A DNA stretch of 14,020 nt, from the NCBI GenBank assembly GCA_024684665.1, contig JAIKWN010000090.1:1-14020 (forward strand), in the 5' to 3' direction. The DNA comes from Clostridiales bacterium (lineage in GTDB: Bacteria; Bacillota_A; Clostridia; Christensenellales; Aristaeellaceae). Shown piece by piece: positions 317 to 13,086 of this stretch. The notes under the pieces were generated by a model. It saw only the letters and a program-made list of their open reading frames with translations, made no database searches and was not told where the DNA came from. Each line of letters opens with the position of its first letter. Positions within the stretch are counted from its first letter, which is position 1. The translations under genes and the position numbers were made by a program.

Positions 317-2503
317 TCATCGTTCCTTCCGCCGTCCAGGTACAGGGAGCAGGAGGGCAATCAGCGCTAGCAGGGAAATCATGTCGCAGAACCGCCAGGC
401 AAGTTTCCCTGCATAGCGGATGAAAACCGTTCTTTCTCCCCCGCCAGCGGGGATCGCAATACCGAGAGTATTGAATTGCGTCTGGGAAATGGGGAGCCGC
501 CGTCCATCTTCCCATGCTTCCCAGCCGTCAAAGGCAAAGACGGGAAGTGTCACGCTGCCACCCGCCTGCGCGGATATCCGAAGCTTCAGGTTCGTGCCAG
601 CCCGGTCAAATCCAAGGACCTCAGCGCCCTCCGAAGTCAACTCGCCCGTCATCGTCCGCGAATCCGTCCGCGGAAGAGAATAATCGAAAAACCGCATCCC
701 CTGTTCGGATACCCGGTTGTAGATCATGAGCTTTTCTTTCCGGGTTTCCCGTGTCAGCATCGGAATCACGGAAGACAGGCAGAAAGCAAGTACCAGAGCA
801 ACTGCCAGCAGCTGCCCCGCGGCATTCGCGCGCTTTTCCCGCCCTTCTGCCAGCCAGCTGAGAATTTGCGTCAATGCCCATGCCCCACACAGGGAAAAGC
901 ACAAATCTACGATCATAAGCAGACGCCAGGGAAACTGGAGATAAGAAACAGCACGCAGGACGAGGCCGGGAAGCGCACCCCAGGGGAAGAGCGTAGAAGC
1001 CGCCAGTACGCAAAGCGTCCCAAGAACGAGCGCACCCAGGGAAATGCGCGCGCCGGGATCCCGTTTCTCTCCCCGCTCACGCAGCAGGAGCAGAAGGGCA
1101 AGACAGAGCAGCGCGGATAAGAGAAGCGGTGCACCGACTTCGTAGCCCCGGGAGCGCAGCGTCGAATCATACCGTTTCTGAGCCAGGTCATAACCAGTCC
1201 CGGAGAGGAGCTGGGCCGGCGCCATGGCCCCAGCGGAAAGCGATTTCACCATATCCTCGCCGGTGACCCCTTGCCGCAGGAAGGTCATCACAGGCGCCGC
1301 CAGGCAGACGCCCAGCAGGGCCGTGCAGAAAAACGCGAGCAGAAGCCGTGGAAGCCTCCTCTCCCGTAAAAGCCGGGGGAGCATCGGCAGGATGATCAGG
1401 AGCGAGAGCACTGCGGAAAGCGCCGTTGTCACGAGATGCGCATGCAGCAGTGCCGCTGCGGAGAGCGCGAGACGCGGCCACCGTCCGGCATCTCCATTCG
1501 TCACTTCGTACAGTTCTGCACAGAAGAAGGGCAGGAACGCCATAGCCAGCGATTCACCCACCGCGCTGCGGGTATATACGTCCGTCAGCCGGTACACAGC
1601 CAGCGTATAGAGAACCGAGCAAACCGCGCCCGCAAACGCGCTCCCAAACACGCGTCTTCCGAGATGATACGCCCCCAGCGCTGTTACAAGATTTACGGCA
1701 ATCAACAGCGCATGCACGGCATACTGGATGCTTGCGCCGGCGATGATCATGAACGCAGAGGGATAGAGAAAGGCGGAAGGATAAAAAGCCGTCACCACGG
1801 AACCGTAACCCTGGTTCATATAAGTAGCATAGCGGACCGGAAACTGTCCGGAGCGCAGTCCTTGCGTCAGAGCCGACAGCCGCTCCAGATGGAAAAGCAT
1901 ATCGTCCCCGATGCCGAGATTGTCCTTCAGGCAGGGTATACTCGCCATCAAAGCGGCAAAAAGAATGCAGACCAGTAGCGAAGAAGATATCCGCCGCGCA
2001 ATCCATTCCCCGAAAACCAGGAAAACCGCAATTGTAGCCAAAAAGAAACTTATCGTAAAAAGCCTGTCCGTACAGGCTCCACCTGTGAGGGTCATCGCCT
2101 CGCACCTGAGAAATGTCCCGGCCCCATAGTCCGCTTCGGCGCGGAAGTTGTTTGCCTCGTTAAAGAGCAAAAAGGACACTTCGCCGGAAGCGTTCTCCGG
2201 CGACACGATAAACGACGCCGGTTCGAAATCAACGCCGTTATCACTCAACAGGCGCACAGTGTTCTCCGCATCTGTTGCAAATGAATAGCGCAGGCGGTAT
2301 CGCCCAGCACGCAGCACCATCCCGGGGCCTTCGGTAACGAGCCCGAAATCGCCCGCCTCCCGTACCGTAAGGGACAGCGTTCCATTCCCCACCAGGTCGT
2401 AGTGTTTCTGCATGCGCGGCGGCAGGATAATCCAGACGGCCGCGATCAGCAGAAGGCAGGAGAGGGCAAGGATCCGGAAAACCCGGTTCCGTTTCTTATC
2501 CAT
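317..2503 (-). CDS. Polytopic membrane protein, GT-C/YfhO-like (PTPS_related family)
   Basis: This 728-residue protein has an N-terminal anchor (about 8-28) and a beta-rich domain (about 35-145) with no membrane segments. A long series of hydrophobic helices runs from about 148 to 590, followed by a second soluble domain and a final helix before RRKER. The loop around 198-210 (GDDMLFHLERL), the GYG...FYP stretch (232-242) and DVYTRSAVGE (308-317) fit the membrane family called '6-pyruvoyl-tetrahydropterin synthase related'. That family resembles GT-C glycosyltransferases using lipid-linked sugars. The acidic pair D200/D201 is where a GT-C catalytic residue would sit, but this is inference. 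The substrate is unknown; a role in cell-surface polysaccharide or lipid glycosylation is plausible. It is the last gene of an operon, 24 nt after the zinc-ribbon gene. A GGAAGGA site about 10 nt before the ATG supports the start. It is a paralogue of the gene at 3247-5463. Confidence 0.85.
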   Translation of the reverse strand: MDKKRNRVFRILALSCLLLIAAVWIILPPRMQKHYDLVGNGTLSLTVREAGDFGLVTEGPGMVLRAGRYRLRYSFATDAENTVRLLSDNGVDFEPASFIVSPENASGEVSFLLFNEANNFRAEADYGAGTFLRCEAMTLTGGACTDRLFTISFFLATIAVFLVFGEWIARRISSSLLVCILFAALMASIPCLKDNLGIGDDMLFHLERLSALTQGLRSGQFPVRYATYMNQGYGSVVTAFYPSAFLYPSAFMIIAGASIQYAVHALLIAVNLVTALGAYHLGRRVFGSAFAGAVCSVLYTLAVYRLTDVYTRSAVGESLAMAFLPFFCAELYEVTNGDAGRWPRLALSAAALLHAHLVTTALSAVLSLLIILPMLPRLLRERRLPRLLLAFFCTALLGVCLAAPVMTFLRQGVTGEDMVKSLSAGAMAPAQLLSGTGYDLAQKRYDSTLRSRGYEVGAPLLLSALLCLALLLLLRERGEKRDPGARISLGALVLGTLCVLAASTLFPWGALPGLVLRAVSYLQFPWRLLMIVDLCFSLCGAWALTQILSWLAEGREKRANAAGQLLAVALVLAFCLSSVIPMLTRETRKEKLMIYNRVSEQGMRFFDYSLPRTDSRTMTGELTSEGAEVLGFDRAGTNLKLRISAQAGGSVTLPVFAFDGWEAWEDGRRLPISQTQFNTLGIAIPAGGGERTVFIRYAGKLAWRFCDMISLLALIALLLPVPGRRKER

Positions 2504-3246: not shown

Positions 3247-5463
3247 ATGAACAAGCGCCTGATTGCCGCCGCGCTGCTGCTAGAGGCTTTGCTGATCGTC
3301 CTTTTCACACTGCCCCTCATCCGCTTTACCCCGGAAGAAATCCCGCTGGCCTTTTCCCATTGGGAATGCCCGGAAGGGCGCTTCGACGAAGGCTGGGGCT
3401 TTTCCCCGGAAGAAGGCGCAAAGCCCAGCGAAGTTTTTCTTGAAAGCCCTTCTCTTTCCCTGGAAAAGGGCGACTACCTGCTCACCGTGGAATATGAAGC
3501 GGAGGCGGACCAGAGCCTGCGGCTGCTGGACGAAAACAATTACGGTCTTCTTCTTCCGGAAGGAACCGTTCATCTCTCCCGCAGCACAAAAACGGCGGCG
3601 ACCCGTGTGCGCGCGGATGCTGGCATCCCCGCCCTGCGCGTGCGCATGGGATATTCCGGGGAGGGTGCCTATAACGTGCTCTCCGTACGCATGGAGACGG
3701 ATTCTGCCGGCTTTGTCCGCAGGCTTGTATGCCTTATCCTGCTTGCCCTTGCGATGGATTTCTTCCTTCTGTGTCCCCGGCTGCGCATCCCCGCCGCCGC
3801 GGCGCTCGGAATCGCGCTCCTTTCTTCTCTGCCGCTCTTCATGGACAAGTTCGCGGACGGGCACGACTGTGCCTTCCATCTGATGCGCATTGAGGCCCTG
3901 GCGGACGGACTTGCCCGGGGCCTTTTCCCTCTGCGGCTCTCAGCTTTGCATTTGGACGGCTGGGGGTATCCGACTTCCATATACTACGGCGATCTGCTGC
4001 TCTGCATTCCTGCTGCGCTGCGCCTTTTGGGATTCTCTGTAACAGGTGCCTACAAGGCATACGTCTTTTTCGTGAACCTTGCGACCGCCGCGGTCGGGTG
4101 CGCCTGCTTTGCCAGGATCGCCGGGGATAAAAGGCGCGGATGCCTGCTGTCCCTTTTATACTGCACGGCCGGTTACCGGATGATGGATATATACGTCCGC
4201 ATGGCCGTGGGGGAATATACCGCCATGCTTTTCTTCCCGCTCATCCTTGCTGGGCTCTGGGACCTGCTTTCAGAGAATCCCCGGGGACGTCGGCTCGCGG
4301 ACGACGCGCTGCTGCTCTCCTTCGGGTTTTCCGGGCTTGTGACCTGCCATCTCATCAGCACGGAGCTGGCCCTCGCCGCCTGCATCCTCACCTGCGCATG
4401 TCTACCCCACCGCTCCCTGCGCCCCCGGAGCCTGATGACGGTCTTTGCGGGGGCGGTCTCCGCGCTGCTGCTCTCTGCGTTCTTCGCCATTCCGCTGCTG
4501 GACTACCTGCGAAACGTTCCGGTCTCCATCACCTCGGTGCCCAATCCCAACGCACAGCGCATCCGGGTGGAAGGAGCGTACATATCGCAGCTCTTCGCCC
4601 TTTTCCAGTCTCCTTTCGGCGGGGAAGGGTACAACACCCCGGCCGGTCGCTTCACCCTCTCCCCTGGGCCGGCGATCCTCGCGCTGCCCGCGGCGTTCTG
4701 GCTGCTGATAAATAAGAAAGGCGGCCGTCGTCTTGCCATTCTTTCTGCCTTTTCGCTCTTCTTCCTCTGGGCATCCACAGCTCTCTTCCCATGGGACTGG
4801 ATCGAGGAAACACGCCTTGGTTTCCTCTGCGGGATCCAATTCCCCTGGCGCTGCCTTGCGATCGCCATCCCGCTGCTCTGCCTGCTGACCGCGGAACTGC
4901 TGCAACTTCCCGCCTGCCCTAAGGAGGCGGAACGATGGATTCTTCTCACCTGCCTGCTCTCCGTCTTTGTCTTCACCGGGCAGTATGCTCAGGAGGGAAC
5001 ATTCATCGAACCCTTTGACCGCCAGGAAGTCATCCTCTCATCGGACGAGGTGGGCGGCGGCGAATACATGCGCTATTCTCCCGAGAACGACCGGGTTGCG
5101 GACGATGAGCGGGAAGCGCTCGCTTCCTCCGTGGAATCCCGGAACCTCGATTGGCTGGAGGTTACTTCCCGGGACGGTTTGTCCTTTACGCTGGACGTGA
5201 TGGCAAGCCTTGAAGAAGACGGCGAGATCCGGTTGCCGGTCTTCAATTACAAGGGTATCACCGCCCGGGATGCGGACGGAAATCTGCTTACCGTTTCCGA
5301 CGGAATCAACTGCCGTGCGATTGTCACCGTCCCCGCCGGCTTCGACGGGCAGGTTTCGGTTTCTTTTGAAGAACCGCGTCCCTGGAAAGCAGCCTCGTTT
5401 GTCAGCCTGGCGGCATTTCTCGCGCTTATAGTCGGCTGCTGTATAAAGAGAAAATCACACTGA
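3247..5463 (+). CDS. Polytopic membrane protein, GT-C/YfhO-like (PTPS_related family), second copy
   Basis: A 738-residue protein with the same plan as its divergent neighbour. It has an N-terminal helix (about 6-24), a soluble beta-rich domain (about 35-150), many membrane helices (from about 157), a C-terminal soluble domain of about 150 residues and a last helix before KRKSH. The shared landmarks are DGHDCAFHLMRIEAL (204-218), GWGYPTSIYYGDL (238-250) and DIYVRMAVGEY (314-324). Each has a counterpart in the other copy, so the two are paralogues that have diverged strongly. The family resembles GT-C glycosyltransferases, so transfer of a sugar from a lipid carrier outside the cytosol is the best guess. 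The donor and acceptor are unknown. GGGAGG lies 7 nt before the ATG. The sequence shows no frameshift. It appears to be transcribed alone. Confidence 0.85.
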   Translation: MNKRLIAAALLLEALLIVLFTLPLIRFTPEEIPLAFSHWECPEGRFDEGWGFSPEEGAKPSEVFLESPSLSLEKGDYLLTVEYEAEADQSLRLLDENNYGLLLPEGTVHLSRSTKTAATRVRADAGIPALRVRMGYSGEGAYNVLSVRMETDSAGFVRRLVCLILLALAMDFFLLCPRLRIPAAAALGIALLSSLPLFMDKFADGHDCAFHLMRIEALADGLARGLFPLRLSALHLDGWGYPTSIYYGDLLLCIPAALRLLGFSVTGAYKAYVFFVNLATAAVGCACFARIAGDKRRGCLLSLLYCTAGYRMMDIYVRMAVGEYTAMLFFPLILAGLWDLLSENPRGRRLADDALLLSFGFSGLVTCHLISTELALAACILTCACLPHRSLRPRSLMTVFAGAVSALLLSAFFAIPLLDYLRNVPVSITSVPNPNAQRIRVEGAYISQLFALFQSPFGGEGYNTPAGRFTLSPGPAILALPAAFWLLINKKGGRRLAILSAFSLFFLWASTALFPWDWIEETRLGFLCGIQFPWRCLAIAIPLLCLLTAELLQLPACPKEAERWILLTCLLSVFVFTGQYAQEGTFIEPFDRQEVILSSDEVGGGEYMRYSPENDRVADDEREALASSVESRNLDWLEVTSRDGLSFTLDVMASLEEDGEIRLPVFNYKGITARDADGNLLTVSDGINCRAIVTVPAGFDGQVSVSFEEPRPWKAASFVSLAAFLALIVGCCIKRKSH

Positions 5464-6800: not shown

Positions 6801-7898
6801 TTATTCTCCGAGGATGGGCTGTCCGTATTTGAACAGCGCCGCGTTGATCTCGTATATGTCGTAGTTCCGCTGGGTGACAAAGTAAGAAACGATGAGATCG
6901 AAGGTGTTGCTGGGTGAAATAGCAATCTCCGCCCGGGAAAGCAGGTCGGTCATCGTCGGAAGATCCAGCTGCAACGCGATGGCGAAAGCTACCGCCGTTT
7001 TCTTCTTGGGCCGGTAATCCTCTTTACACCGGATGCGGGAGAATACCTTCCGGTCGATGTTCGCCTTTTTATAAACCGTTACGTCGTCCATTCCGCTCTC
7101 ATCGATCAGCTTCAAAAGCCGCTGCTGGAAGGTTTCTTCCTTGTTCGCCAGGACCTCATCCAGCGTCTTTTCGCCAGCGTCCGGAAATGCGCCGTAAACG
7201 GCCATTGACGGAGCCGGTTCCGAAGCGTCGTCTCTGAGTTTCCTGACGGAGCGTCTCCTGACCGTTTCTGCTTCCCGGTAATACTGATCTGCCGCAAGTC
7301 TTCGTTCTTCTTCATAAATCCGCTGACTCTCCACTCTCGTTTTGCGGAACTCCGCTTCCCGGATCCTGCGGGCGGAATGGTCGTCGATGTATTCCTCGAT
7401 CCCGCTGACGACCTGCCTGGACAGTTCCAGCGCCCCGCGGTCGAAAACCACGAGAGTCACCGTCATCTCGTGCGTCAGCAGGAATCTTCCAATCTCCGAA
7501 AGCGCGATCTGGAGCGCTTCATCCTTCGGGAATCCATAAACGCCGGTGGCAATCATTGGGAAGGCGATGCTTTCGCAGGAAAGATCCGCTGCGAGCGCAA
7601 GGGAATTTGCGTAACAGGAGGCAAGCGTTTCCCGCTCCCCATGCGCGCCGTCCACCCATGAAGGGCCCACCGTATGGATGATGAACCTGGCCGGCAGATG
7701 AAAAGCAGGCGTATGTGCGGCCTGACCGGGCGCGAGTTCCCCGATCTTTATCCGTTCCGCAAGCAGTTCTTTCTCTCCCGCCGCCATGTAAATCGCCGTA
7801 TCGACGCCGCCCCCGATGATCGGTCTCGGATTCGCGGTGTTTACGATGGCATCCGCGCAGACCCGCGTTATATCATTGCGGACGATCTGAAAAGACAT
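6801..7898 (-). CDS. Macrodomain protein with charged linker and C-terminal HTH-like domain
   Basis: A 365-residue cytosolic protein. Residues 1-170 are a macrodomain: DAIVNTAN (16-23), GGGVDTAIYMAAG (29-41), IIHTVGP (73-79) and the substrate loop MIATGVYGFP (115-124). With both Asn residues and the GGGVD acidic residue kept, it looks able to hydrolyse ADP-ribose esters or related bonds. A charged, Arg/Glu-rich stretch (about 172-222) is probably helical or coiled. The C-terminal part (about 245-363) is helical, with VYKKANIDRKVFSRIR (275-290) laid out like an XRE-type helix-turn-helix. Binding to DNA is not shown, and the domain may instead be a protein-interaction module. GGGAGGGG lies 7 nt before the ATG. 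It is the last gene of the operon with the kinase for thiamine and the flavodoxin, 60 nt behind the latter. It differs in class from the zinc macrodomain at 11300. Confidence 0.88.
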   Translation of the reverse strand: MSFQIVRNDITRVCADAIVNTANPRPIIGGGVDTAIYMAAGEKELLAERIKIGELAPGQAAHTPAFHLPARFIIHTVGPSWVDGAHGERETLASCYANSLALAADLSCESIAFPMIATGVYGFPKDEALQIALSEIGRFLLTHEMTVTLVVFDRGALELSRQVVSGIEEYIDDHSARRIREAEFRKTRVESQRIYEEERRLAADQYYREAETVRRRSVRKLRDDASEPAPSMAVYGAFPDAGEKTLDEVLANKEETFQQRLLKLIDESGMDDVTVYKKANIDRKVFSRIRCKEDYRPKKKTAVAFAIALQLDLPTMTDLLSRAEIAISPSNTFDLIVSYFVTQRNYDIYEINAALFKYGQPILGE

Positions 7899-8428: not shown

Positions 8429-9061
8429 TTATATCGGATCTTTCCTGCACTTCACCAGCAGGGCTTTTCCAACTCCCACCGAAACCTCCGCAACCTTTCC
8501 GGGCAGTACCTCGTTGCTGATCCCGTACTGGTATTCGCAGGTAATTTCCCCGTCTTCAAGCGGATACTTCGCATTCCGGATGCGGATCCCCTTTGCGGTT
8601 CCGGAAATGTTCAGAAGCGAGAAATACGCGTATTCCTCTCCGATGAAAACCGGCGCCTCTGAAACGACCTCTATCTCAGACCAGTCGTCGATGATCCGCC
8701 CCTTCCTGCCGGACGCATCCAGCCAGAGCAGGATGGAGAGATTGCCGATCGTGTGGTCCAGCCGCCGCCCGGTCACGCCCACCAGGAGGAATTCCCCAAA
8801 TCCGCGTCGCAGGGCTTCCCGTACGGCATAGACTGTATCCGTATCGTCTTTTTCGCGGGGGAGAACGATCGTTTCAATCTCCAAATGCGGGTTCTCATGC
8901 GAATCGAAATCCCCCACGATCAGATTCGGTTTCGCCTTCAGCACGTCCATATGTACAAGACCGCTGTCACAGTAGACGATAAAGTCGTCGTTCCGGAGTT
9001 CCTCCCGGATCAGATCATAATTCCCGATATCCGATCCGCCGACGATGACGCACCTTCCCAT
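8429..9061 (-). CDS. thiN: Thiamine pyrophosphokinase
   Basis: A 210-residue enzyme of the usual length for this family. It moves a pyrophosphate from ATP to thiamine to give the cofactor thiamine diphosphate in the cytosol. The N-terminal Rossmann-like half contains GGSDIG (8-13), VGDFDS (49-54) and EKDDTD (70-75), which bind magnesium, ATP and the pyrophosphate. VGVTGRRLDHTIGN (94-107) is the family signature, with T97 in place of one glycine of the common GGR form. The C-terminal half is the beta-sandwich that completes the thiamine pocket (YFSLLNIS at 146-153, then GIRIRNAKYPLE at 158-169). It is the first gene of the operon, with GGAGG about 8 nt before the ATG. No TPP riboswitch fold is visible in its leader. 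The symbol is by family. Confidence 0.93.
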   Translation of the reverse strand: MGRCVIVGGSDIGNYDLIREELRNDDFIVYCDSGLVHMDVLKAKPNLIVGDFDSHENPHLEIETIVLPREKDDTDTVYAVREALRRGFGEFLLVGVTGRRLDHTIGNLSILLWLDASGRKGRIIDDWSEIEVVSEAPVFIGEEYAYFSLLNISGTAKGIRIRNAKYPLEDGEITCEYQYGISNEVLPGKVAEVSVGVGKALLVKCRKDPI

Positions 9062-9101
9062 ATTTTACACCTCCGGGTTCTCTAATGGAATCCGCTACCC
9101 T

Positions 9102-9130
9102 ACTATAGCATACTGCGGCATACCGCACAA
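9102..9130 (-). promoter_or_regulatory. Promoter of the thiamine pyrophosphokinase operon
   Basis: On the minus strand TTGTGC (9130-9125) and TATAGT (9107-9102) are 17 nt apart, and TGC precedes the -10, an extended form. It lies about 40 nt before the ATG at 9061. Confidence 0.65.
9108..9127. promoter_or_regulatory. Candidate operator inside the pyrophosphokinase promoter
   Basis: TGCGG-CATA-CCGCA (9114-9127) is an inverted repeat lying between the -35 and -10 elements. GCATAC also occurs twice with a 10-bp period (9108 and 9118), which puts both copies on the same face of the helix. A repressor bound here would block RNA polymerase. No regulator gene is adjacent. Confidence 0.35.
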
Positions 9131-9230
9131 GAATCCTCCTATCCTTTAAAACAGGGAAGCCCAATCGGACACCTGCCCGGAATGCGACCCCTTCTTTTCC
9201 GGTCTTCTCCTTCAGTGTGCATTTTCTTGC

Positions 9231-9347: not shown

Positions 9348-10085
9348 ATGGGCATCACAAAAACAGACTTCATGCGCGGGATGCAGTGCCGCAGGATGCT
9401 CTGGCTGGACAAACACAAGCCGGGGCTTCGCGTCATTCCTCCGGAAACCCAGGCCAGGCTTGACGCCGGGAACGATTTCGGCGACCGCGCCATGGGCATG
9501 TTCGGTCCGTATGAGGAGATGACCGTTTACCGTCCTGGCACGAGGATCCCCGACAAGAAGAAAATGGCGGAAAAAACATCGCGCCACTTGGCCCTCGGAA
9601 CGCCGGTGATCTGTGAGGCCGCGTTTCTCAATTACAACAATTACTGCGCAGTGGATATCCTGCGCAAGACAGATTCGGGCTACGATTTCTACGAGGTCAA
9701 AAACAGCCCCGCGGTGCACGATCAGTTTATCCGGGACGCGGGATTTCAGTACTACATCATCACCCGCTGCGGACTGAAAATCGGGCGTATCTTCATCGTC
9801 ATCCACGGTCCGGATGAGGAAAACCCTTTCGTCCCCGTCGAGATCACGAAGCAGGCAAAAGGCTGCTACCGGTGGATCAACGACAACATCTGGGATCTGA
9901 ACCGGATGCAGAAAGAAGCCAATGAAGTGCAAACCAACCCCGGCGAGCAGTGCACGAACCCTTATGAATGCTGGTACTATGGGTACTGCCACGGGCTGAC
10001 GCCCCCGGAAGGGCAGATCCGGATGGAAATGAACTTTCCTGAGGCATCGGGCATCTCAAAAGCAGGAGGATATGAAAGTGAGTGA
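9348..10085 (+). CDS. Cas4/RecB-like PD-(D/E)XK nuclease with probable 4Fe-4S cluster
   Basis: A 245-residue protein. The N-terminal ITKTDFMRGMQCRRMLWLD (3-21) is the opening typical of DUF2779/Cas4-like nucleases and contains C14. The catalytic core shows E90, AVDIL with D103, then YEVKNS with E116 and K118 (the (D/E)xK motif), and FQYYI with Q134. Near the C-terminus C202, C208 and C214 follow (QC...EC...YCHG). One N-terminal and three C-terminal Cys is the 4Fe-4S layout of Cas4 and AddB. It should act as a metal-dependent DNA nuclease. It resembles the N-terminal half of DUF2779 proteins without their C-terminal half. The ATG at 9348 has GGAGG 5 nt upstream; a GTG at 9330 would add six residues. 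It leads the operon and overlaps the next gene by 14 nt. No CRISPR or other cas gene is near. Confidence 0.75.
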   Translation: MGITKTDFMRGMQCRRMLWLDKHKPGLRVIPPETQARLDAGNDFGDRAMGMFGPYEEMTVYRPGTRIPDKKKMAEKTSRHLALGTPVICEAAFLNYNNYCAVDILRKTDSGYDFYEVKNSPAVHDQFIRDAGFQYYIITRCGLKIGRIFIVIHGPDEENPFVPVEITKQAKGCYRWINDNIWDLNRMQKEANEVQTNPGEQCTNPYECWYYGYCHGLTPPEGQIRMEMNFPEASGISKAGGYESE

Positions 10086-10842
10086 ATCATTTACCATCAT
10101 GGACGATGAAATTGCGCTCAGCGCGGTTCTTGAGCGCCCAGCAGAGGAAAACAGTCCGCTGATCATCGTCCTGCATGGCTTCACCAGCGCCAAGAACAGG
10201 CCGCACACGCTCGCAGCCTGCGAGGCGATGCGCGGCGCAGGGTTTGCCACGCTGCGCTTTGATCTGTACGGGCACGGGGAAAGTGGCGGTGAGTTCCGGA
10301 AGCATACCCTGTACAAATGGATTTCCAATACACTGGCGGTGATCCGGTATGCCAGAAGTCTCGATTTTGTCACGGAGATCTGGCTTTCCGGCCATTCGCA
10401 GGGCGGGCTGGTTGCCTCTCTCGTTGCGGGTATGGAACCGGATCACATCAAAGGACTGATCCTCCGGGCTCCGGCTTTCACAATTCCGGCCGGATCTCGG
10501 GAAGGAAATCTGCTGGGTTACCATTTTGATCCCCTTCGGATTCCGGACGAGATCAAAACAATCAAAGCCCTGACGCTCGACGGGGAATATGTCCGAGTCG
10601 CGCAAACCTTGTACGTCGAGGAAGCGATAGACCGTTTCCGGGGGCCAGTCCTCATTCTCCACGGCAGCGGGGATGATACGGTACCGGTACAGGATTCCAT
10701 AAAGAACGCCAAGCGGTACCAGAACTGCCGGCTGGAGATCCTGAACGGCGAAACCCATCATTTCGATCAGCATCTCGAGCAGATGCAGTCCATCATTCGG
10801 ACATGGCTCGTAAGCACTCGTTCGTCGGAGCAAAAATGCTAA
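10072..10842 (+). CDS. Alpha/beta hydrolase, cinnamoyl/feruloyl esterase type
   Basis: A 256-residue cytosolic hydrolase with no signal peptide. HGFTS (35-39) is the oxyanion-hole loop. DLYGHGESGG (64-73) follows. GHSQGG (107-112) contains the nucleophile S109. D201/D202 (HGSGDDTVP) and H229/H230 (GETHHF) complete the triad. APAFTIPA...HFDPLRIPDE (133-160) fits the inserted lid subdomain of cinnamoyl esterases such as LJ0536 of Lactobacillus johnsonii. The natural ester is unknown. Translation is coupled to the nuclease gene by a 14-nt overlap. The ATG at 10072 is only 2 nt behind AGGAGG. The in-frame GTG at 10078, 8 nt behind it, is better spaced, so the true start may be two codons later. 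Confidence 0.85.
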   Translation: MKVSESFTIMDDEIALSAVLERPAEENSPLIIVLHGFTSAKNRPHTLAACEAMRGAGFATLRFDLYGHGESGGEFRKHTLYKWISNTLAVIRYARSLDFVTEIWLSGHSQGGLVASLVAGMEPDHIKGLILRAPAFTIPAGSREGNLLGYHFDPLRIPDEIKTIKALTLDGEYVRVAQTLYVEEAIDRFRGPVLILHGSGDDTVPVQDSIKNAKRYQNCRLEILNGETHHFDQHLEQMQSIIRTWLVSTRSSEQKC

Positions 10843-10904
10843 TCATTCCTTCGGGAATTCACTCACGAAAATCACCAAAGATTCCGAAAAAGGAGGGTCC
10901 TATC

Positions 10905-11276
10905 ATGAACAAGGTCCATACGGAAAAAGCGCCCGCCGCGGTCGGGCCGTATTCTCAGGCCGTCGTGGCCAACGGGATGGTCTATACTTCAGGCCAGATT
11001 GCCCTTGACCCCGCGACGGGAGAGCTCGTCGGAAAAACGATTGAAGAACAGGCCGAACAGGTGATGAAAAACCTTGTCGCGGTCCTTGAGGCAGCAGGAA
11101 CAAAACCGGAGAACGTAGTCAAGACACTCTGTTTCCTGACGGACATCCGTGATTTTGCCGCCTTCAATGAAGTATATGCGAAGGTTTTCACCGAAAAGCC
11201 CGCCAGGTCCTGCGTGGGCGTCCAGGCTCTGCCCAAAGGCGCACTTTGTGAAGTGGAAGCCGTTGCTGCACTGTAA
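10905..11276 (+). CDS. ridA: RidA, reactive enamine/imine deaminase
   Basis: A 123-residue protein of standard length for the RidA (YjgF/YER057c/UK114) family. It forms trimers and hydrolyses reactive enamines and imines, such as 2-aminoacrylate made by PLP enzymes, to keto acids and ammonia. AAVGPYSQAV (11-20), YTSGQIALDP (27-36) and the block PARSCVGVQALPKGALCEVEAVA (99-121) carry the archetypal Arg (R101) and Glu (E116), so it is predicted to be the active subgroup. AGGAGG lies 7-8 nt before the ATG at 10905; an upstream in-frame ATG at 10803 lies inside the hydrolase gene and lacks such support. It is 62 nt downstream of the hydrolase gene and 23 nt before the zinc macrodomain gene. Membership in an ADP-ribosylation operon is unusual for RidA. 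Confidence 0.93.
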   Translation: MNKVHTEKAPAAVGPYSQAVVANGMVYTSGQIALDPATGELVGKTIEEQAEQVMKNLVAVLEAAGTKPENVVKTLCFLTDIRDFAAFNEVYAKVFTEKPARSCVGVQALPKGALCEVEAVAAL

Positions 11277-11299
11277 CCGGACTGACAACGAGGAATAGT

Positions 11300-12079
11300 A
11301 TGACCCAGCAGGAAAGATGCCTGTGGCTCATTCAGGCGTTGCTACATGAGATGCCGCAGTACAGGAATATGCTGATCCCTTCGCTTCCGGATCACCGCTG
11401 GCGGCTGCTGCGCAGCCTGATGAACGTGCGGCCGCCAATGCCGGCGACGGAAGAATTCCTTAAAGTTCAGGATGCGTATCTGCGGCAAATGACCCTGGAA
11501 AAAGGCATCGTGGACGCTTCTTTGCTCACCCCATGCCGGCGGAATCCGCGCATCGTTTTATGGCAGGGGGATATTACCACCCTGCGCTGCGGCGCCATCG
11601 TAAACGCCGCCAACAGCCAGTTGCTGGGTTGTTTTTCTCCCTGCCACGGATGCATCGACAACATCATCCATACAATGGCCGGCGTTCAGCTGCGCCTGGC
11701 CTGTCATGACCTGATGCAGAAGCAGGGATATGAGGAACCCACCGGGCAGGCGAAGATCACCCCTGGCTTCAATCTCCCCGCCGGATATGTGCTGCATACC
11801 GTGGGGCCGATCATTAACGATGATGTAACGACAGAGGATGAACGCCTGCTGGCCTCCTGCTATGAGAGCTGCCTACGGCTCGCCGACGACAACGGCCTCA
11901 CTTCCGTTGCCTTCTGCTGCATCTCGACCGGCGTATTCCGCTTTCCGGCAGAACGGGCTGCGGAGATCGCAGTGGATACCGTAGAGAGACTCCTCCGCGA
12001 AAGGGCGGGCATGCAGTGCGTCATCTTCAACGTCTTCAGGGACAGTGACAGAGAGATCTATCAGGAGCTACTGAACTGA
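11300..12079 (+). CDS. Zinc-dependent macrodomain, protein ADP-ribosyl hydrolase
   Basis: A 259-residue cytosolic enzyme. Residues 1-80 form the N-terminal helical extension typical of this class. From about 83 the macrodomain runs WQGDITTLRCGAIVNAAN (88-105), HTVGP (166-170) and CISTGVFRFP (207-216). The segment LLGCFSPCHGCIDNIIH (108-124) is the signature of the Zn-macro class, whose zinc ligands are two Cys and one His (C111, H116 and C118 are candidates). Family members remove ADP-ribose from proteins modified by M-class sirtuins. Here the sirtuin gene follows at a distance of 27 nt, which supports this role. GAGG lies about 6 nt before the ATG. Target proteins are not known. The GcvH-like target of the Staphylococcus and Streptococcus systems is not encoded in the window. 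Confidence 0.9.
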   Translation: MTQQERCLWLIQALLHEMPQYRNMLIPSLPDHRWRLLRSLMNVRPPMPATEEFLKVQDAYLRQMTLEKGIVDASLLTPCRRNPRIVLWQGDITTLRCGAIVNAANSQLLGCFSPCHGCIDNIIHTMAGVQLRLACHDLMQKQGYEEPTGQAKITPGFNLPAGYVLHTVGPIINDDVTTEDERLLASCYESCLRLADDNGLTSVAFCCISTGVFRFPAERAAEIAVDTVERLLRERAGMQCVIFNVFRDSDREIYQELLN

Positions 12080-12106
12080 AAGAACTGGCAGTAGGGAGCG
12101 ATCAGG

Positions 12107-12991
12107 ATGGAAAAAAGGATTCAGGCATTGAAAGAACGGATCCGACAGGCGGACGCCGTCTTGATCGGCGCGGGCGCGGGCCTTTCCACCGCCGCCGGAT
12201 TCGTGTATGCCGGGGAGCGGTTTGAAAAATACTTCCAGGATTTCGGACAGAAATACGGCTTCCGCGATATGTATTCCGGAGGCTTCTATCCCTATTCAAC
12301 GCAGGAAGAATTCTGGGCTTACTGGAGCCGGTATATCTGGATCAACCGGTATATGGACGCCCCGAAGAGCACGTACAGCGACCTCTTCCGGCTGGTTAAG
12401 GACAAAGATTCCTTCGTACTGACAACCAACGTGGATCATTGCTTCCAGAAAGCCGGCTTTGACAAAAAGCGGCTGTTCTACACGCAGGGCGACTACGGCC
12501 TGTTCCAGTGCACGTTGCCCTGCTGCCAAAGAACCTGGGACAATGAAGAAACCGTCCGGGAAATGATTCTGTCCCAGGGGTATAAAATCGGTGATCATAA
12601 CGATCTGATCCCGCCGGAAGGAAAAGCCGCAGTAATGTCCGTGCCTTCCGCGCTGCTCCCCATTTGTCCCAACTGCGGGCGGCCCCTGACCATGAACCTC
12701 CGTTCGGACGACAAGTTCGTGGAGGACGCCGGCTGGCACAGCGCGGCAGCAGAATATAAAGCCTGGGTGACCCGGCATCAGGATCGGGCCACGGTCTGTC
12801 TGGAAATCGGTGTGGGTTACAACACCCCCGGCATCATTAAATACAGCTTCTGGCAGCAGGTATATCAGAACGAAAAGGCCACGTATGCCTGTCTGAACAT
12901 GGAAGAAGAGCAGGTCCCGAAGGAAATCCAGGACCGTTCCATTCTCATCGCGGGGGACTCCCATCAGATCATTCAGGAGCTGCTCGCATGA
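12107..12991 (+). CDS. M-class sirtuin (SirTM), protein ADP-ribosyltransferase
   Basis: A 294-residue NAD-dependent enzyme. GAGAGLSTAAGF (21-32) is the NAD loop. The class-specific DMYSGGFYPY (54-63), TTNVDH (106-111) and YTQGDYGLFQC (125-135) follow. In ordinary sirtuins a catalytic His sits 8 residues before the first zinc Cys. Here Q127 occupies that place, as in SirTM proteins, which lost deacylase activity and instead ADP-ribosylate proteins. N108 is the other expected active residue. Zinc is held by C135, C139 or C140, and C187/C190 (CPNC). The late segment ICLEIGVGYNTP-like region (230-241) closes the NAD pocket. It is the last gene of the operon, followed by a terminator. The GGGAG site is about 8 nt before the ATG. 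Known members modify a GcvH-like carrier; none is visible nearby. Confidence 0.9.
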   Translation: MEKRIQALKERIRQADAVLIGAGAGLSTAAGFVYAGERFEKYFQDFGQKYGFRDMYSGGFYPYSTQEEFWAYWSRYIWINRYMDAPKSTYSDLFRLVKDKDSFVLTTNVDHCFQKAGFDKKRLFYTQGDYGLFQCTLPCCQRTWDNEETVREMILSQGYKIGDHNDLIPPEGKAAVMSVPSALLPICPNCGRPLTMNLRSDDKFVEDAGWHSAAAEYKAWVTRHQDRATVCLEIGVGYNTPGIIKYSFWQQVYQNEKATYACLNMEEEQVPKEIQDRSILIAGDSHQIIQELLA

Positions 12992-13042: not shown

Positions 13043-13086
13043 GCCCGCAATCCGGTGCGAATCCGGACTGCGGGCCAGTTTTTCTT
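13043..13086 (+). terminator. Terminator of the nuclease-to-sirtuin operon
   Basis: A 13-bp stem with one mismatch (GCCCGCAATCCGG / CCGGACTGCGGGC) and a 7-nt loop is followed by CAGTTTTTCTT. It lies about 50 nt behind the sirtuin stop codon. On the minus strand it is followed by a weaker T-rich run and might also end the membrane-protein remnant. Confidence 0.9.

Follow-up and report, generated by a model that had tools for sequence, protein, structure and literature searches.

The 14,020-nt stretch analyzed here (contig JAIKWN010000090.1 of the Clostridiales bacterium assembly GCA_024684665.1; hereafter the window) carries two adjacent genes on the plus strand, one encoding a Zn-Macro protein with an N-terminal extension, a predicted ADP-ribosyl hydrolase or eraser (positions 11300-12079), and the other a class M sirtuin (SirTM), a predicted protein ADP-ribosyltransferase or writer (12107-12991). 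We consider it likely that the two form an ordinary independent, or 'minimal', writer-eraser pair, and that the three genes preceding them, which encode a Cas4-fold nuclease, an alpha/beta hydrolase and a RidA-type deaminase, are lineage-specific neighbors. In such a pair, SirTM would use NAD to ADP-ribosylate a target protein, and Zn-Macro, aided by zinc, would strip the modification off again. The pair would have moved away from the sequence box, the HxlR-type regulator and the DUF1848 gene that accompany it in relatives, and would now stand behind RidA. The window adds one more orphan SirTM/Zn-Macro pair of a known kind.

The identities of both enzymes are secure and both carry the signatures of their classes, in agreement with the first-pass annotation, which had recognized the pair from the sequence. 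Zn-Macro matches NF003163 over nearly its full length (346 bits, cut-off 272), and its best solved relatives are 5kiv, 8rsl and 8rsi. About 80 additional residues at the N terminus, which may correspond to the three-helix extension of Zn-Macro proteins, can be aligned to 5kiv as well as to the NF003163 model. It contains NAAN at residue 102, the Cx4HxC zinc loop as CFSPCHGC at residues 111-118, and the Dx3H motif as DNIIH at 120. SirTM has no Pfam match and is matched weakly by deacylase models, and it aligns with the solved SirTM of S. pyogenes (SpySirTM, 5a3a) at E 4e-62. The HG of sirtuins is replaced by QG, with Q127 (in YTQGDYG) at the position of the catalytic histidine and aligned with the QG of 5a3a. 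The class motif GVGx[NT]TP is present as GVGYNTP at residue 235, and N108, R199 and N264 are also present. Homology and these motifs suggest that the two proteins have the activities predicted above. In a tree of SirTM proteins, that of the window groups with those of three loci from relatives, L001, L002 and L018 (support 96/89), the last of which is cut at a contig end.

To place the gene order among relatives, genomes were scanned for SirTM with one genome per species. The scan gave at least 583 matches, of which the 80 best loci were compared over up to 8 kb per side (59 of the 80 with at least 4 kb upstream), with a homolog threshold of E 1e-5. Zn-Macro (E below 1e-20) occurs in 52 of the 80 loci and ends at most 150 nt before SirTM in 29. 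Homologs of the nuclease, the hydrolase and RidA occur in none of these 80, nor in any of the 36 loci of the window's own SirTM clade, of which 21 came from the first scan and 15 were added later. The first-pass annotation had suggested a search for recurrence of the order nuclease-hydrolase-RidA-ZnMacro-SirTM and had itself named an order unique to this genome as a refutation of its proposal; within the loci examined, the order is unique to this genome.

The reciprocal comparison gave the same picture. For the nuclease, it used 200 genomes of the family of genome G007, to which G002, from the SirTM clade nearest the window, also belongs. The nuclease or a longer, DUF2779-type relative is present in 33 of the 200 genomes, the short form (≥370 bits) in 25, and around the 20 nuclease loci compared out of these 25, no hydrolase, RidA or SirTM gene was found. 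The hydrolase is present in 42 of 200 genomes, and none of the other four window genes lies within about 1.5 kb of it in the 30 loci compared. At the level of whole genomes, SirTM is found in 21 of the 25 genomes with the short-form nuclease versus 55 of the 175 others; we read this co-occurrence as shared clade membership because the two genes were never found as neighbors. With all three genes absent near SirTM in the 80 and the 36 loci and with no reciprocal linkage, we rejected the nuclease, the hydrolase and RidA as members of the system, and they are probably lineage-specific, chance neighbors of the pair.

Within the window, the list of open reading frames (ORFs) and the RNA fold agree with the earlier description of five closely spaced genes on one strand ahead of a strong terminator. 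The nuclease gene (9348-10085, +, 245 amino acids) overlaps the hydrolase gene (10072-10842, +) by 14 nt, and gaps of 62 nt from the hydrolase to RidA (10905-11276, +, 123 amino acids), 23 nt from RidA to Zn-Macro and 27 nt from Zn-Macro to SirTM follow, the last linking the genes of the pair. A longer ORF of RidA starts at 10803, which is unlikely to be the true gene start. By eye, the ribosome-binding sites are good for the nuclease, the hydrolase and RidA and weaker for Zn-Macro and SirTM. A strong hairpin with a T-run, 3' of SirTM at 13043-13076, is a probable terminator (-25.6 kcal/mol and z -4.85 in the plus-strand fold, with TTTTT behind it); it is listed on the minus strand as well and perhaps serves both directions. 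Promoter-like sites in the window are not above chance (one found, 2.7 expected), so that it is the spacing of the genes that argues for an operon.

Bacterial SirTMs and macrodomains occur in independent or in extended operons, according to Rack 2015 (PMC4518038), and the independent kind is termed 'minimal' in Ariza 2024 (PMC11490716). Minimal operons, including that of MorMacro, resemble the window in having the writer and eraser adjacent, with the class signatures and with no GcvH-L or LplA2 beside them; the window differs in the RidA, hydrolase and nuclease genes that stand ahead of its pair on one strand with it, an arrangement unseen in the relatives examined. The extended operon of Lactobacillales and Staphylococcaceae contains a SirTM and a Zn-Macro homologous to those of the window, together with GcvH-L, LplA2 and OYE- and LLM-type oxidoreductases, which were not found in the window. 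For GcvH-L and LplA2, a Pfam scan of the window's 13 proteins found no such family, as the first-pass annotation had noted. It had taken this absence as a sign of a variant system with a different target. Since independent pairs have been in print since 2015 (PMC4518038), the absence is not new, and the idea that it marks a new variant is not supported.

The other part of that proposal, a different target, stood up better. We surveyed GcvH in 49 genomes, which between them carry 50 of the 80 SirTM loci, and found it in 15 and not in the other 34, many of which are drafts in which some absences may be false. Only in one of the 15 (G218) do GcvH and SirTM share a contig, 114 kb apart, and GcvH is never near SirTM. 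Because GcvH was found in only 15 of the 49 genomes and never near SirTM, and because the Zn-Macro of a minimal operon failed to demodify GcvH-L in the published assay (PMC11490716), another target is likely. PMC11490716 describes the targets of other systems as still elusive. In the window, the genes next to the pair probably do not include that of the target, which is probably not GcvH-L, RidA, the hydrolase or the nuclease.

In relatives, the pair has a recognizable setting. A box, AAAGTGCGTACTT, is present with at most one mismatch in 35 of the 80 SirTM loci, whereas ten order-1 Markov sets gave 0.4 on average. All but two of the 35 loci, 33 in number, have it upstream of SirTM at a distance of no more than 4.5 kb. 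An HxlR-type regulator is among the neighbors in 36 of the 80 loci; a representative matches PF01638 and stays below the cut-offs of the NCBIfam RrpA and RrpB models. Among the 36 loci of the window's clade, the box (at most two mismatches, no farther than 700 nt ahead of SirTM) is found in 22, a Zn-Macro match in 25 (that of L235 at only 41% and downstream), DUF1848 after SirTM in 19, HxlR in 17, a small family that we call p115 in 10, and the radical S-adenosylmethionine (SAM) enzyme rSAM_ACGX in three. The usual order in this clade is HxlR, Zn-Macro, the box, in some loci p115, SirTM and DUF1848, and it looks like redox- or electrophile-sensing control of the pair. In the 200 genomes of the G007 family, SirTM is present in 76, DUF1848 in 73 and both in 50 (Fisher p 2e-11; this and all Fisher tests below ignore the kinship of the genomes). 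DUF1848 directly follows SirTM in 13 of the 27 genomes of this family that have a SirTM of at least 70% identity, a count that leaves out two genomes with only SirTM fragments at that level. On the SirTM tree, the labels for rSAM, DUF1848 and the box are scattered and hardly more clustered than shuffled labels.

The window lacks this setting. Homologs of HxlR, DUF1848, p115 and rSAM_ACGX are absent from it, the 14-base box has no match in it at up to three mismatches, and a 13-base form has no match with one mismatch or fewer but two matches with three, which we take for chance because such matches are expected at this window size (control 0.69, for the longer form). Among the nearest members of the clade, DUF1848 follows SirTM in both L001 and L002, the latter of which additionally carries the box and an HxlR gene before Zn-Macro. 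As these keep the setting and the window is without it, the window's pair appears to have lost it.

The p115 family comprises proteins of ~112 amino acids. Their genes lie upstream of SirTM, in most cases behind the box in the gap that follows Zn-Macro (L017:7593-7928, +, and also in L003, L006, L008, L021, L229-L232 and L236), and some homologs start with a signal-peptide-like sequence. p115 matches no Pfam or NCBIfam family, a search with its model (predicted local distance difference test score, pLDDT, 87.3) recovered no solved fold (best E 1.8), and a 35-row alignment has no conserved lysine; with neither a known fold nor a conserved lysine, p115 is not established as a lipoyl-type carrier. 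Inspection by eye of the gaps between Zn-Macro and SirTM in eight relatives recognized no hidden GcvH-like gene, and four of these gaps hold p115.

Several observations weigh against an independent pair with chance neighbors. The 23- and 27-nt gaps are typical of one transcript, and RidA could therefore be co-expressed with the pair. The genomes compared do not include the window's own species, and the closest SirTM relatives among them are at most 82% identical, so that an order confined to the window's genus would be missed. Of the 20 nuclease loci, one (L122) carries a macrodomain gene (8643-9158, -) ~0.9 kb from the nuclease, the only macrodomain near these loci; it is without the zinc loop and is about equally similar to a second macrodomain of the window (41%) and to Zn-Macro (40%). 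One of the two 13-base box matches with three mismatches, at 11235-11247, lies inside the end of RidA, ~50 nt before Zn-Macro. The binding of the box by HxlR proteins is itself a prediction, and the SirTM literature cited here contains no activity test of any clostridial SirTM.

Three other explanations were weighed on this basis. The first-pass annotation had proposed that SirTM modifies RidA or the nuclease and Zn-Macro erases the mark, in a variant system with a role in defense or stress. The tight spacing on one strand, the Cas4 fold of the nuclease, the missing GcvH-L, the macrodomain of L122 (zinc loop aside) and the genome-level co-occurrence of nuclease and SirTM speak for it, but the linkage counts around SirTM, the nuclease and the hydrolase given above speak against it and the co-occurrence fits shared clade membership. 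Neither cas1 nor cas2 families were found among the window's 13 proteins (Pfam scan). A PADLOC search of six window proteins returned matches to Cas4 (E 0.0017) and, for RidA, to PD-T4-2_B in its RidA-like C-terminal region (E 7e-37), and no complete defense system around the nuclease; a defense system was accordingly rejected. We regard such a variant system as very improbable, and the comparison argues against effort on RidA and the nuclease. A milder version, in which RidA, Zn-Macro and SirTM are co-transcribed as stress genes for shared timing only and the pair tunes a distant target under the same stress, would suit the short gaps and the single strong terminator, as well as the placement of the pair behind an HxlR-type box in relatives; with no promoter evidence, no recurrence and no good box in the window, we hold it to be unlikely.

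As in the extended operons, the target might also be a lipoyl protein, GcvH or a different one, with its gene at another place in the genome. The genomes with GcvH do include G001 and G002, both from the SirTM clade nearest the window; against this stand the 34 genomes in which GcvH was not found, subject to the false absences mentioned above and in a survey confined to GcvH, and its absence from the neighborhood of SirTM. In addition, canonical GcvH was not modified by the SirTMs published so far, and the Zn-Macro of a minimal operon does not demodify GcvH-L in an assay (PMC4518038, PMC11490716). We give a lipoyl target a small chance, and the independent pair with lineage-specific neighbors remains the reading that we favor.

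The comparison of relatives also revealed a cassette near SirTM that is absent from the window. It is built around the ACGX system, a radical SAM/SPASM enzyme (rSAM_ACGX, TIGR04340) and an ACGX-repeat peptide (TIGR04341), which lies 0.5-3.2 kb from SirTM in many relatives, often with Zn-Macro, a nitroreductase and a PNPOx/ferredoxin protein. Of the 49 SirTM genomes, 16 have rSAM_ACGX, at most 3.2 kb from SirTM in 13 of the 16, and the system is found in only three of the 20 genomes from which L001-L021 come. A sample of 299 genomes was taken from the family of G232 (Blautia sp. An249, the genome of L046); in it, SirTM is present in 142, rSAM_ACGX in 38 and both in 33, that is, SirTM in 33 of 38 genomes with rSAM_ACGX versus 109 of 261 others (Fisher p 1e-7), and the two genes are within 3.2 kb of each other in 23 of the 38. 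The peptide gene stands beside rSAM in 27 of 30 loci. The link is weaker in the G007 family, in which rSAM_ACGX is present in 24 of 200 genomes, 16 of them with SirTM (Fisher p 0.003) and seven with SirTM at most 5 kb away. Twelve cassette loci of 11-16 kb (L211-L221 and L228), picked for the closeness of rSAM and SirTM, contain HxlR in 12, an ACGX-like peptide in 11, the box in 10, the nitroreductase in nine, and the PNPOx/ferredoxin protein and Zn-Macro in eight each. The common layout is HxlR, box, ACGX, rSAM, nitroreductase, PNPOx/ferredoxin, Zn-Macro and SirTM, with losses and rearrangements. No paper was found on SirTM, or on a macrodomain and a sirtuin, together with radical SAM, on HxlR together with a macrodomain and a sirtuin, or on DUF1848, and none that looked relevant on ACGX, in a search that did not reach most subscription journals or bioRxiv.

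These linkages allow a wider proposal, which we put forward tentatively and consider rather unlikely: clostridial independent SirTM/Zn-Macro pairs, among whose family that of the window counts, might form a redox regulon of their own, in which an HxlR-type regulator would act through the box to control SirTM, Zn-Macro, flavin or nitroreductase enzymes and a dedicated sulfur-rich substrate. In genomes with the cassette, this substrate would be the cysteine-rich ACGX-repeat peptide matured by the radical SAM enzyme, which would fill the place of the lipoyl-GcvH-L of the extended operon, and the reported cleavage of cysteine-ADP-ribose by Zn-Macro would explain why the enzyme has zinc. For the clade of the window, the role of the peptide would fall to DUF1848 or p115, and the window would have lost the cassette. 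The functional likeness between the two systems is unproven; each would combine a small sulfur carrier, lipoyl-GcvH-L in the extended operon and a cysteine-rich peptide in the cassette, with flavin oxidoreductases, SirTM and Zn-Macro. Whichever details hold, the comparison yields candidate partners with strong gene linkage, namely the ACGX peptide with its radical SAM enzyme, DUF1848, p115, and HxlR with the box, and these make the target question testable in gut commensals.

Two side observations concern these loci. In L195, around the rSAM_ACGX of G307, an ACGX-repeat tail seems by eye to be fused to a flavoprotein-like domain of ~200 amino acids, and this apparent fusion is in line with a redox role of the repeat. 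In L222, L223, L225, L226 and L227 and at L219:2806-4600, divergent SirTM-like genes stand next to one another in runs of two to four; their products are 28-36% identical to the window SirTM, Zn-Macro was not found in the first five of these loci, and the runs possibly represent another SirTM class.

Of the three preceding genes, the nuclease was assigned by structure. It matches no Pfam or NCBIfam family and a sequence search against the PDB was empty, and its AlphaFold2 model (pLDDT 88.8) has Cas4 (8d3l) as its best Foldseek match (E 7e-6, with a moderate TM-score of 0.5), which bears out the earlier suggestion of a Cas4-like nuclease. The catalytic D103, E116 and K118 and four Fe-S-type cysteines are invariant in 33 aligned sequences. 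The protein is 35-37% identical to the N-terminal parts of four proteins of ~500 amino acids, and the one of these that was scanned carries PF11074 (DUF2779). As modeled, it is a Cas4-fold PD-(D/E)XK nuclease, a stand-alone relative of the N-terminal half of the DUF2779 protein. It shares the PD-(D/E)XK fold and the four-cysteine pattern with Cas4 and DUF2779 nucleases and differs from them in lacking the C-terminal half of DUF2779 proteins and in having no CRISPR gene found in its window. The hydrolase is of the S33/Hydrolase_4 type (PF12146, 3e-22), with GHSQG at residue 107. RidA matches TIGR00004 with 167 bits as an enamine/imine deaminase; proteins of this type clear reactive enamines and imines.

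Elsewhere in the window, the second macrodomain gene (6801-7898, -) matches PF01661 and is without the zinc loop; a C-terminal part of ~190 amino acids has no Pfam match, and the gene lies near flavodoxin and thiamine pyrophosphokinase genes. Two large paralogs, at 317-2503 (-) and 3247-5463 (+), are 26% identical to each other, match no Pfam family and resemble membrane proteins.

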